Below, one piece after another: positions 55,631 to 59,740 of a DNA stretch of 64,000 nt. Source of the DNA: Picosynechococcus sp. PCC 7003 (GTDB lineage Bacteria > Cyanobacteriota > Cyanobacteriia > Cyanobacteriales > MRBY01); NCBI RefSeq assembly GCF_001693255.1, contig NZ_CP016474.1, positions 2,312,661 to 2,376,660 of the forward strand, read 5' to 3'. The notes below the pieces were generated by a model. It ran no database searches. It saw only the letters and a list, made by a program, of their open reading frames with translations, and was not told the origin of the DNA. The translations under genes were made by a program, and so were the position numbers. Within the stretch, counting starts at the first letter, position 1; every line of letters starts with the position of its first letter.

Positions 55631-56404
55631 TTAGCGAGTTTTTTCAGTGACCGTTTGAACCCATTGGGACAAATTCACGACAGGGATCCCCTGTTTTGTG
55701 GCGGTAGATCGCTCAGGGGCAGTGTTATAGCCCCAGTCTGCAAGAAACAGTTGCAGGGTGTTTAATTCCGGTTGCTGTTGAACTTTTTCCAGGGTTTTGA
55801 GGCGATCTTCAATGAATAGAAAAGTTTCTACCTCCGGTGTAAGCAATTGCTTTAAGGTGATAGTTTTGGGTTGTTTTTGCTCTTTGCCAAAAATTTGGGC
55901 CGCCGGGAAATCGACATTCTGATGCTGGAGTAATTGTCGCGTAAAACGGGCTTCTTTCGTCGTGATGATATAGGGCGTTACGTCATCCTGATCCAGTAAA
56001 TTTTGCAGTAATTTCACCATTCCCGGATAAAATTGGTGTCGTCCCCGCCATTGGTCTAACTGGGTTTGCAGTTGGCGATCGCGCACTCGATCAAGGGCTT
56101 CTATTAACTGGGCAGAATTCAGATTTTCCTGCTGGAGAATCTGCTGAACAACAATTTGCCAAGCTGCCCAGAGTCGCGCTTTAGGAATGTGTTGTTGTAA
56201 AGCTCGTAGGAGGATGATCATCTCCCAACCCGTTTCGATTAAAGGCCGTAATTCGTTGAAGTCCGCCTGTAATTCTGTCAACAAATCTTCCGGCGTACTG
56301 GGCCAAATCGTTTGATACGCAAGGCAAGCGGAATGGAAATATTCCGGCAGCCCGTCACAGATCACCCCGTCAAAGTCAAAGGCAATAATTGTTTTTGGTG
56401 CCAT
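55631..56404 (-). CDS. HAD-superfamily hydrolase
   Basis: A 257-residue haloacid-dehalogenase-fold phosphatase. Motif I is IAFDFDGVICDGL near residues 7-19 with both aspartates. Motif II is in YIITTKEARF near 145-154. The later acidic motif is LFIEDRLKTLEKV near 196-208. It has a helical cap typical of subclass I. Substrate unknown; its pattern resembles phosphoglycolate phosphatase relatives only in general. Its start overlaps the stop of the DUF1825 gene by one base (TAATG), so the two are one transcript. Confidence 0.85.
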   Translation of the reverse strand: MAPKTIIAFDFDGVICDGLPEYFHSACLAYQTIWPSTPEDLLTELQADFNELRPLIETGWEMIILLRALQQHIPKARLWAAWQIVVQQILQQENLNSAQLIEALDRVRDRQLQTQLDQWRGRHQFYPGMVKLLQNLLDQDDVTPYIITTKEARFTRQLLQHQNVDFPAAQIFGKEQKQPKTITLKQLLTPEVETFLFIEDRLKTLEKVQQQPELNTLQLFLADWGYNTAPERSTATKQGIPVVNLSQWVQTVTEKTR

Positions 56405-56724
56405 TAGTCAGGGATTTGGGCCTTCATGCGTTCGAGGGTCAGATTCATCTGGTCAAACATTTGTTGGGGAGTCATGCCAAACTGACCAAGCTGGGTTTTC
56501 ATCTGCTCAACAGCCATTTGGGCCATAAAGTCATCGGAGAGTTCAAAGCGTTTCATGAAAATTTTGTAGCGATCCATAACGCTTTCCATCTGGTCGATGT
56601 ACATTTTCTTGCCTTCCCGGTCGAACTTACCAAAGTCACTGCCGAGTTGGACTAAGTTTTGGTAGTCTTCAAATAAAGTTTTGGCTTCCTGCTGGACAAT
56701 TTCTGAGTCAAAAAATCCCATCAT
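56404..56724 (-). CDS. DUF1825 protein
   Basis: A 106-residue all-helical protein of the cyanobacterial DUF1825 family: FFDSEIVQQEAKTLFEDYQNL, then GKFDREGKKMYIDQMESVMDRYKIFMKRFELSDDF and a methionine-rich end. Conserved across cyanobacteria, role unknown. Two adjacent ATGs (56724, 56721) are possible starts. It is translationally coupled to the HAD gene. Confidence 0.88.
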   Translation of the reverse strand: MMGFFDSEIVQQEAKTLFEDYQNLVQLGSDFGKFDREGKKMYIDQMESVMDRYKIFMKRFELSDDFMAQMAVEQMKTQLGQFGMTPQQMFDQMNLTLERMKAQIPD

Positions 56725-57257: not shown

Positions 57258-58361
57258 TTATTGAGTTATCTCACCCTGGGCGATCGCCTGCTGTTTGATT
57301 AAACGTTGCACCGCCATCAGCGCACGGTTGAGTTCCACATTTTGGCGCTGAGGATTTTCCAGATAAGCCCGTTGCTCCTGCTCGATCATCAGCACATCTT
57401 GCTCTACCAAGCCATCCAATAACCCTTTGGCCGCATTGAAACAGAGATCCTTTACCCAGCGGCGGAACGGCACCGGCAGTTTGTGGAGTCGCCAAAAGGC
57501 ATTAAGGGAAGTGAAATGCAACAAGTAAGCGCGGGTGCGGGTGCTGTGGGTCGGACAAAACAAGCACATAATTTTAAAATCATTCCCCAAGGTCGCGCTC
57601 CAGTTGGGGTAAACATAGCTGACATCCAACGGTTCCGGGTGGAGCTTGCGCAGGGCCGGAAAAAACAATTGGGAGATCGACCAAATCTTATCAATTTTAT
57701 AATAGCTCTGGGCTTCGTAGTGGGCATCTACCCGCTGCTCGGTCACCTGAATATCCTCTAACTTTGCCGAAGCCCACGCTTGATAATTGTCATGGAGGTG
57801 ACCGTGGTACATATCCATCAAGTTTTCAATGAGATAAGAAAAATGCCCCTCACAGTCAATGGTCGTGACGCTGACAATGTAGTTTAGATGATCCCATTCT
57901 GGGATCGGCAGGGGTTGAATCGTCCCATCAGTTAAACGTTCAGGATTCCCTGGAAAAACCCAAATAAAACCATCCTGTTCCCGCACGGGTAGGGTACGAA
58001 TCTTACAGGCGGGCCGCTTCTGATTTTCTGCGAGATAGGGCACATGGGCGCAGGTACCAGACGTGTCAAACTGCCAACCATGGTAAGCACATTCAAGGTT
58101 ATCCCCAACCACTTGACCGGCACTGAGCTTCACCTGGCGGTGGGGACAGCGGTCTTCGAGGGCTTGGACTTGACCTGTGTGATCCCGGTAGAGCACAAAA
58201 TCTTCATTCCAGAGGGTAAACCCCAGGGGCTGGTCCGTTAATTCAGCACTGCGAGCCGTCACATACCAATGGTTTTTGTTGATGCCACAGGCGCGCACAT
58301 CAAGCTTTTGGGGGATAGCAGGACTCGAACTAGCGACGGCTTGGGGGTGGCGATTGTGCAT
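57258..58361 (-). CDS. Rieske non-haem iron oxygenase (pheophorbide a / chlorophyllide oxygenase-like)
   Basis: A 367-residue oxygenase. The Rieske [2Fe-2S] site is CPHRQ near residues 72-76 and CAYHGW near 91-96. The mononuclear iron site is in NLMDMYHGHLHD near 178-189. The overall plan matches the plant PaO/CAO/TIC55 group and its cyanobacterial relatives. The substrate could be a tetrapyrrole or another ring compound; sequence alone cannot decide. It is divergent from the DUF2811 gene across the repeat-bearing region. Confidence 0.85.
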   Translation of the reverse strand: MHNRHPQAVASSSPAIPQKLDVRACGINKNHWYVTARSAELTDQPLGFTLWNEDFVLYRDHTGQVQALEDRCPHRQVKLSAGQVVGDNLECAYHGWQFDTSGTCAHVPYLAENQKRPACKIRTLPVREQDGFIWVFPGNPERLTDGTIQPLPIPEWDHLNYIVSVTTIDCEGHFSYLIENLMDMYHGHLHDNYQAWASAKLEDIQVTEQRVDAHYEAQSYYKIDKIWSISQLFFPALRKLHPEPLDVSYVYPNWSATLGNDFKIMCLFCPTHSTRTRAYLLHFTSLNAFWRLHKLPVPFRRWVKDLCFNAAKGLLDGLVEQDVLMIEQEQRAYLENPQRQNVELNRALMAVQRLIKQQAIAQGEITQ

Positions 58362-58427
58362 GGGGAGGCGGCGTACCGGAAGATATTTTGATTCTAAAAT
58401 TTAAACAAAAATCCTGACAAAATTCAT

Positions 58428-58540
58428 CTTTCCTCACAAATTTGCAATTCTTATTTTTCCCGCAAAAATTCCCCCAATGATTCCCCATGGTTTCCCCAAT
58501 CTGTTTCATTTTTTCCACAACTTTCCCCAGGTTTTCCACA
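58428..58540 (+). repeat. Phased array of DnaA-box-like direct repeats
   Basis: About eight short direct repeats on one strand, spaced by roughly 10-13 bases or a multiple. Two are exact TTTTCCACA (58511-58519 and 58532-58540), the DnaA-box form reported for cyanobacteria. Between and before them lie near-matches: CTTTCCCCA (58521), GTTTCCCCA (58490), GATTCCCCA (58479), AATTCCCCCA (58467), TTTTTCCCGCA (58454) and TTTCCTCACA (58429). The 70 bases to the left (58381-58450) are very AT-rich, like a DNA-unwinding element. The whole 58362-58870 gap is free of genes. Confidence 0.6.
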
Positions 58541-58870
58541 GCTCAAAACGATTTTCTTGGGGCTTAGCATTGGTTTGGGGAATTCTCCTTTTGAACTCAA
58601 GATCCACACTACAAAGGCGGAAAAATATGAAGAACCGTAAACAAAATCCCCCTGAAACCCCTGATTTTTCGTGGACAGCCAAAAGGCGATCGCCTTGCCG
58701 TAACATTTTGCAATATTGACAAACCCACCCATCCATAGACAACAATAGGGCGACGACAGACGAAACCGAACAAAACGCCAAGACCATTTTTCAGCAGTTC
58801 TGAAATCCGTTCCTTCGTCCCTCGCTAGTTTGATTTTTTAGTCCCGCAGATTCCGACAGAGCTAAAGTTA

Positions 58871-59104
58871 ATGATGAATCCCACCGTGAGCATTTTGGCC
58901 GAAATTCCCGAAGCCCTACACCAATCCCTAACCGACTACCTAGAAACCCATCCCAATTGGGATCAAGACCGGGTGTTTGCGGCGGCGTTGTCCCAATTTC
59001 TGCTCCAAACCGGAGAAGGGCAGACCCCACGAGAGGCCGAAAATTACCGTACCTGCGCCAGAGTATACTTAGAAACGCTCTTTGAGCAGTCAAAGTCCTA
59101 CTAA
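58871..59104 (+). CDS. DUF2811 protein
   Basis: A 77-residue protein matching the cyanobacterial DUF2811 pattern: VSILAEIPEALHQSLTDYLETHP, then NWDQDRVFAAALSQFLLQ, and a helical end. Its shape (strand then helices) recalls ribbon-helix-helix proteins, though this is inference. ATG 58871 and 58874 are both possible. It lies 15 bases before pth. Confidence 0.83.
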   Translation: MMNPTVSILAEIPEALHQSLTDYLETHPNWDQDRVFAAALSQFLLQTGEGQTPREAENYRTCARVYLETLFEQSKSY

Positions 59105-59119
59105 GTATTTTGTGAGGTT

Positions 59120-59740
59120 ATGGGTCAAGACAAACCGCTCGTCATTCCCCAGTTGATTGTGGGGCTGGGGAATCCAGAACCGAAGTACGATCACACGCGC
59201 CATAACATTGGTTTTGAATTTGTTGATCGCCTCGCCGCAGATTGGGGTGCGACCCTCCAGGACAATCGGAAATTTCAAGGGGTTTGGGCGGAGGTGCGCC
59301 GCAATGGCCAAAAACTCGGTTTGCTCAAACCCACCACCTATATGAACCGTTCTGGGCAGTCGTTACGAGCCGTGATTGATTGGTACAAAATTCCACCGGA
59401 ATCGGTACTGGTGGTTTACGACGATATGGATCTCCCCCTAGGGCGACTGCGGTTACGCCTGCAAGGATCCGCAGGGGGGCACAATGGGATTAAATCCATC
59501 ATTTCCCATCTGGGGACCCAAAGTTTTCCTCGATTACGCATTGGCATCGGCAAAACCCAACTCCAAGGCGATCGACCCACCATCGCCCATGTGCTTGGGA
59601 AATTTGCGCCAGCAGAGAAGCCCGTTTTAAATGATGTGCTAGGGCTGGCGGAGGAAGCGTTAGCCTTGAGTCTCCGGGAAGGGGTGGAGAAGGCTATGAG
59701 CATCTATAATGCCCGCAGTGTTGAATCGGGTCAGTCATAG
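59120..59740 (+). CDS. pth: Peptidyl-tRNA hydrolase
   Basis: A 206-residue Pth enzyme that frees tRNA from stalled peptidyl-tRNA. It has IVGLGNPEPKYDHTRHNIGFEFVD near residues 13-36 (catalytic histidine in RHNIGF), LLKPTTYMNRSGQ near 74-86, VVYDDMDLPLGRLRL near 97-111 and GSAGGHNGIKSI near 115-126. Its 3' end overlaps the next gene by 32 bases. Confidence 0.96.
   Translation: MGQDKPLVIPQLIVGLGNPEPKYDHTRHNIGFEFVDRLAADWGATLQDNRKFQGVWAEVRRNGQKLGLLKPTTYMNRSGQSLRAVIDWYKIPPESVLVVYDDMDLPLGRLRLRLQGSAGGHNGIKSIISHLGTQSFPRLRIGIGKTQLQGDRPTIAHVLGKFAPAEKPVLNDVLGLAEEALALSLREGVEKAMSIYNARSVESGQS

Follow-up and report, generated by a model that had tools for sequence, protein, structure and literature searches.

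A conserved, one-directional DnaA-box array upstream of DUF2811 in cyanobacteria as a probable site of DnaA control

A one-directional, helically phased array of DnaA boxes lies between a divergent Rieske-type gene and the gene of a DUF2811 protein at position 2371171 of a 3.06 Mb chromosome (C1), of which the window analysed here, a stretch of 64,000 nucleotides, covers C1:2312661-2376660. This box array is real and goes beyond chance. Taking all comparisons jointly, it is probable that the array is bound by DnaA, which thereby controls the promoter of DUF2811, and that DUF2811 in turn serves the DnaA system. Comparison between genomes established the architecture of the array, its conservation, its linkage to DUF2811 and a fixed spacing. 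It further showed that most genomes without dnaA have lost DUF2811 and that the boxes have decayed in the four dnaA-less genomes where DUF2811 remains. We infer from sequence that DnaA would be the binder, that the effect would be transcriptional and exerted on a promoter, and that DUF2811 would have a role in the DnaA system.

Architecture of the box array

The sequence-only reading of this DNA had described a phased array with an exact box pair 21 bases apart, CTTTCCCCA between them and weak boxes on the same strand, and this description was borne out (Table 1). Both exact copies of TTTTCCACA are on the plus strand with their starts 21 bases apart. The additional near-matches listed in that reading needed some revision: those starting at 58490 and 58479 stand on the plus strand, the ones placed at 58467 and 58429 begin at 58468 and 58428 (the latter being CTTTCCTCA, on the same strand), and the one at 58454 is merely a T-run ending in TTTCCCGCA. 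From 58468 onward, the steps between boxes are 11, 11, 21, 10 and 11 bases and, thus, near whole helical turns. An AT-rich stretch of 70 bases had also been noted at the left, and 58381-58450 indeed contains 75.7% AT, a value equalled or exceeded in 0.9% of the 70-base stretches of the window. A profile built from 50 thinned sequences out of 95 with modal spacing outlines the array as TTT..AATTCTTATTTTT, TTTTCCCCA, ATTCCCCA, TTTCCACA, a one-turn gap, TTTTCCACA, the weak middle word and TTTTCCACAGG, and the region near the promoter as TGTAACATTTCGCA.CATTGACA. The AT-rich element TTTGCAATTCTTATTTTT is possibly a site of DnaA-assisted melting or the putative binding site of another factor.

Table 1 Features of the locus (window positions)
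Feature	Position	Strand	Remarks
Rieske-type oxygenase gene, divergent	57258..58361	-	neighbour in near relatives only; outside the module
AT-rich element TTTGCAATTCTTATTTTT	58441..58458	+	at the array's 5' edge; conserved in the profile of 50 sequences
Weak DnaA box ATTCCCCCA	58468..58476	+	profile consensus tTTtCCCCA
Weak DnaA box GATTCCCCA	58479..58487	+	window letters and profile
Weak DnaA box GTTTCCCCA	58490..58498	+	profile consensus TTTCCaCA
Strong DnaA box TTTTCCACA	58511..58519	+	exact word
Middle weak DnaA box CTTTCCCCA	58521..58529	+	between both strong boxes
Strong DnaA box TTTTCCACA, final box	58532..58540	+	exact word
Conserved promoter-like block	58699..58754	+	TTGACA 58716-58721 (175 bp after the array), AACAAT 58741-58746
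DUF2811 gene	58871..59104	+	77 aa; PF10929, E=3e-28; proposed target of the array and proposed DnaA partner
Peptidyl-tRNA hydrolase gene, downstream neighbour	59120..59740	+	outside the module

The unusual feature is the clustering of the boxes and not their number in the window, where 37 boxes with 0-1 mismatch compare with 29.3 expected and 9 of 100 shuffles reach 37, i.e. boxes are not clearly enriched. Were the 44 exact boxes of C1 scattered, one would expect about 0.009 pairs of exact boxes on the same strand and no more than 30 bp apart. The array segment holds six box-like words per 120 bp, and no other segment reaches three in a density sample of 464 kb of the chromosome (20 stretches of 20 kb plus the window; both strands, 120-bp segments, 20-bp steps). 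Clusters as dense as this elsewhere in the genome had been named as evidence that would refute the origin or titration reading; none with at least three box-like words occurs in this sample, and a single other group of exact boxes, three at C1:1635199-1635248 and thus denser in exact words than the array, was found on C1 outside of it. This triplet (L264, L180) comprises TTTTCCACA words 20-21 bp apart, 3' of a YggT-type gene (named by eye), and a triple-box group downstream of a YggT-type gene is also present in another genome (G002, L181). A search of the locus against Rfam returned merely two chance-level matches.

Comparison with a replication origin

An AT-rich element followed by one-directional weak boxes and strong boxes is an origin-like layout, and the sequence-only reading had put forward a chromosomal replication origin at which DnaA would open the AT-rich element and load the helicase. 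This proposal did not stand up, and we regard it as extremely unlikely. On C1, dnaA is found at 331 and dnaN at 1330244. The array, at a distance of 0.69 Mb from dnaA, adjoins neither gene, unlike most predicted cyanobacterial origins. The GC skew, an analysis suggested in the same reading, shows no local sign change: it is negative in the sampled pieces on either side of 2.371 Mb, which is a weak test given the irregular profile of this genome. PCC 7002 is taken here to belong to the same genus as the genome studied. Its origin lies near dnaA, with a marker-frequency peak near dnaA at position 1 and a similar profile upon dnaA deletion (PMC7198777, accessible part). Likewise, oriC of S. elongatus is located between dnaN and ccbZp and contains 11 boxes (PMC3480399, accessible part).

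Other genomes argue in the same direction. Within 20 kb around DUF2811 of G335, one exact box occurs and dnaN is absent. At dnaN, G098 carries 12 exact boxes distributed over both strands (L166), and its DUF2811-linked pair resides on a different contig. In G278, a group of eight exact boxes, again on both strands, is located at 864 kb and coincides with a sampled sign change of the AT skew, and the DUF2811 array is found at 2252 kb; as a caveat, the latter position is near the opposite AT-skew shift. Most likely, the array is not a replication origin. At G000:C1:1329515, a single exact box is situated about 730 bp before the dnaN match, and no many-box cluster occurs there within 3.5 kb.

Linkage of the array to DUF2811

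When 60 relatives were searched at the DNA level, the noncoding array and the DUF2811 gene were matched separately in many families of the order. The repeats, whose retention in close relatives had been proposed as a check, are not lost in such relatives. At all 79 usable named loci, an exact TTTTCCACA is found upstream on the DUF2811 strand (at least two in 65 of them); these named loci are the best 80 of 452 relatives from a protein-led scan, with L114 excluded for insufficient upstream DNA, and the set is thus biased towards the closest relatives. At least one exact box is present in 59, and at least two in 48, of the 63 dnaA-bearing genomes of a wider set, the four without any being G012, G040, G126 and G129. 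Second DUF2811 copies (G207b, G220b) are left out of this wider set, whose 67 regions altogether contain 129 exact forward words compared to four on the other strand and three of the reversed word. Among 20 additional regions, which stem from 18 genomes of the class and include nine small genomes of family f41, 18 show an exact box. Conversely, when the search starts from the pair TTTTCCACA-N12-TTTTCCACA, 53 of 291 genomes of the phylum contain it (reversed control 0/291), and DUF2811 is present at 24 of the 30 returned loci of this 21-bp exact pair.

The genes upstream of DUF2811 are far less constant. After merging six named loci that duplicate G genomes, 135 distinct loci remain, at which the upstream neighbours, in either orientation, fall into 62 clusters. 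Because these neighbours vary, the array is to be regarded as a conserved noncoding element of DUF2811 and not of the Rieske-type gene. The sequence-only reading had allowed for a DnaA-regulated promoter of either flanking gene; of this, the part concerning DUF2811 is probably right as judged from sequence, and the part concerning the Rieske-type gene falls away. Control of the latter could be read from a minus-strand promoter-like match from 58420 to 58391, of which 0.8 are expected by chance in the stretch, but the Rieske cluster provides the upstream neighbour at just 6 of the 135 loci and the array stays with DUF2811, which makes this explanation scarcely credible. In relatives including G006, G013 and G025, the DUF2811 match and the peptidyl-tRNA hydrolase match lie on separate contigs.

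DUF2811 also occurs on plasmids (11 records), of which four copies on large Nostoc and Acaryochloris plasmids were examined (L311-L314). Both Nostoc copies keep a box and the 174 bp spacing described below; of the Acaryochloris copies, L313 has a box at 118 bp and L311 has none. A search for phage copies of DUF2811 found none. Some individual loci are worth recording. At L118 (Baaleninema simplex PCC 7105), a TnpB-like gene (by eye) is positioned between the array and DUF2811, with the boxes displaced to -1641. Four f41 genomes (L293, L297, L298, L300) display an inverted exact box 44 bp beyond the forward box, and f41 genomes in the class sample contain two to five DUF2811 matches each.

Fixed spacing to a promoter-like block

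Downstream of the array, a conserved TTGACA/AACAAT block precedes DUF2811 and likely represents its promoter, as we infer from sequence; its spacer of 19 is long, and the block was not called by a consensus promoter scan. The distance from the last box to TTGACA was measured in a range of 100-240 bp, taking the TTGACA nearest to 174. Starting from 139 distinct loci, none of them recorded as lacking dnaA (among named loci, dnaA status was examined for L152 only), two without box word and 11 without TTGACA in range were removed, leaving 126 loci with both elements. In 108 of these, the distance amounts to 172-177 bp, and the TTGACA in those 108 loci is followed by the gene start at 78-398 (sd 61). 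If the first TTGACA is taken instead, 106 of the 126 loci are within 172-177 bp; anchoring the measurement on the best box pair places 99 of 145 within 172-176 (one gene distance of 551, in G017, being a misplaced block). The 18 loci outside 172-177 bp include shorter distances of 163-164 (four loci), 152 (one) and 143 (four), which are near one, two and three helical turns less, as well as distances fitting no whole turn (119, 124, 179, 187 at three loci, and 239).

Two features expected of a DnaA-regulated, sda-like promoter are seen here: the box group is upstream of the gene and kept in relatives, and the array position is constrained relative to the putative promoter. Other elements lying between the array and TTGACA might also account for the constancy of this spacing. 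HLR1 is a 16-base word recognised by the light regulator RpaB (consensus from the accessible part of PMC11633204). In 75 of 96 distinct loci, the best HLR1 match lies on the opposite strand, 90 bp before TTGACA, and a match with 0-1 mismatch occurs in 46/96 compared to 0/96 shuffles, related loci not being independent in either count. The window's own best match has three mismatches and is found at another position.

Joint absence of dnaA and DUF2811

Among 312 distinct genomes, 292 have both dnaA and DUF2811, 14 have neither, two have dnaA only and four DUF2811 only (Fisher p=5e-19, kinship ignored). G324, being the same genome as G299, was counted once. G035 was scored dnaA-less on account of its sole weak match (8e-11, in a 265-aa frame), other dnaA-bearing genomes of the chosen set giving 1.3e-65 or better; scoring it as dnaA-bearing changes the table to 292 both, three dnaA only, four DUF2811 only and 13 neither (p=4e-17). 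The tool-drawn class sample of 289 genomes yields 274 both, 10 neither, two dnaA only and three DUF2811 only (p=2e-14, kinship ignored), and in the chosen set of 80 genomes (79 distinct), all 11 without DUF2811 are also without a full dnaA, with the weak match of G035 set aside. The genomes with neither gene fall under eight labels (f7, f14, f17, f24, f31, f2/g62, f33/g47 and f33/g48), independent losses being judged by family and genus label, and other members of genera g47 and g62 have both genes.

In the two dnaA-only genomes (G333 and G403, drafts of 380 and 460 contigs), a more sensitive profile search did not find DUF2811 either. A small conserved neighbour used as control (gene 56404-56724) is present in 29 of 29 genomes, including all 18 dnaA-less ones. 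Outside the class, none of 24 genomes of the phylum gave a DUF2811 match. Weak matches in frames of 73-76 aa (E 0.04-0.09), found in three dnaA-less f14 genomes and as a second one in G017, were not scored as DUF2811. Since the gene is kept widely and mostly lost where dnaA is lost, DUF2811 may be a working partner of DnaA.

Two further observations were made in passing. Short frames of 265-285 aa with weak DnaA-like matches were seen in G035 and G049, three of them in the latter. The dnaA-less genome G045 contains three exact boxes in a tandem repeat (C2:18150-18200, L170) at a locus without DUF2811 match.

Box decay in genomes without dnaA

The four genomes having DUF2811 without dnaA are G017, G183, G218 and G299. 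G017 has no box, compared to three exact boxes each in G044 of its genus and G195 of its family. In G183, the DUF2811 gene is broken, forward boxes are absent and one exact box is present on the reverse strand. G218 and G299 have one exact box each, G179 of their genus two plus two weak ones. TTGACA is retained in G017, G218 and G299, and the DUF2811 frame is open in all three. Such decay would be the expected trace of relaxed selection on candidate DnaA sites, as suggested by just these four genomes.

The binding protein might, of course, be something other than DnaA that recognizes TTTCCMCA words: the array is known from sequence comparison, its weak words are of the CCCCA type, and in dnaA-less G017, where boxes are absent, the 5' AT-rich TTTGCAATTCTTATTTTT element persists and is still legible by eye. 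Against this, the boxes decay without dnaA as TTGACA stays in three of the four genomes, and TTTTCCACA is the cyanobacterial DnaA box (PMC4674748, accessible part), so that another binder appears very unlikely. Still improbable, if less so, is the titration role also raised in the sequence-only reading, with the array acting mainly as a datA- or DARS-like site for DnaA titration or nucleotide exchange and DUF2811 being adjacent for another reason. Strong and weak boxes in helical phase would fit a DnaA oligomer, and the boxes decay without dnaA. A titration site would not predict, however, that the array is linked to a single gene, on one strand and with a constant distance to TTGACA, as holds also on two plasmids, nor that DUF2811 is lost jointly with dnaA.

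The DUF2811 protein

The sole convincing Pfam family of the protein is DUF2811 itself. By eye only, it looks like strand-helix-helix; membership in the ribbon-helix-helix proteins was considered, and confirmed neither by Pfam nor by the sequences of solved structures nor by fold search. No sequence match to solved structures was obtained below E 0.39, and no fold match at E<=0.001 using a poor structure model, which at pLDDT 56 is unusable. NCBIfam gave no match to DUF2811, and PHROGs a chance-level one for one of two proteins. In the literature searched, outside of which most subscription papers fell, DUF2811 is not named and no comparable array is reported by title or abstract start.

Proposed mechanism

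In the preferred reading, i.e. control of DUF2811 by DnaA, DnaA would nucleate at the pair of strong boxes, which are spaced by 21 bp, and extend from there over the weak boxes of the same helical face in the direction of the AT-rich element. The resulting complex could then influence the promoter-like block, situated some 174 bp further downstream, via DNA looping or intermediate factors, with either activation or repression of DUF2811 being allowed. DUF2811 itself might function in the DnaA system, for instance as a feedback regulator or as an output. When DnaA of PCC 7002 is produced in S. elongatus, it binds to the oriC of that species in ChIP-qPCR, and the growth of PCC 7002 lacking dnaA resembles that of the wild type (PMC7198777, accessible part). 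Due to this normal growth, any control of DUF2811 would not be essential there.

More tentatively, and with somewhat less than even confidence, DUF2811 could be envisaged as an unrecognised, dedicated regulator of DnaA, the level of which DnaA would set via the array, in a replication-control loop dissolved where DnaA was given up. A light or redox input to this loop through the HLR1-like site of many relatives is possible.

Significance and comparison with known systems

Set beside Ohbayashi et al., the locus offers a directly testable answer, namely the proposal that DnaA controls DUF2811. At the same time, the unstudied but widespread DUF2811 is singled out as a protein that likely belongs to the DnaA system, given that it and dnaA are missing together under eight labels of genus or family. 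The locus also serves as a warning that groups of DnaA boxes in cyanobacteria need not be origins.

The datA and DARS sites of E. coli are, like the DUF2811 array, conserved groups of DnaA boxes outside the origin. To our knowledge, they have no fixed link to one promoter, in which they differ from the array described here. The cyanobacterial oriC at dnaN shares the box word TTTTCCACA with the array and, in the case of Cyanothece 51142, comprises three boxes with an AT-rich stretch (PMC4674748, accessible part). In contrast to such origins, the DUF2811 array is one-directional, tied to DUF2811 and away from dnaN and dnaA, and in G098 and G278 it exists in addition to a many-box cluster.

The closest analogue is the sda promoter region of B. 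subtilis. The sda product is a small regulatory protein that inhibits Spo0A activation in sporulation, and we know of no relation between Sda and DUF2811. In both cases, a DnaA-box group lies upstream of the gene, sda being directly controlled by DnaA (PMC4447404, accessible part). Unlike at sda, the regulation of DUF2811 is deduced from sequence, and its array is one-directional, is positioned about 174 bp before TTGACA and is kept across many families.
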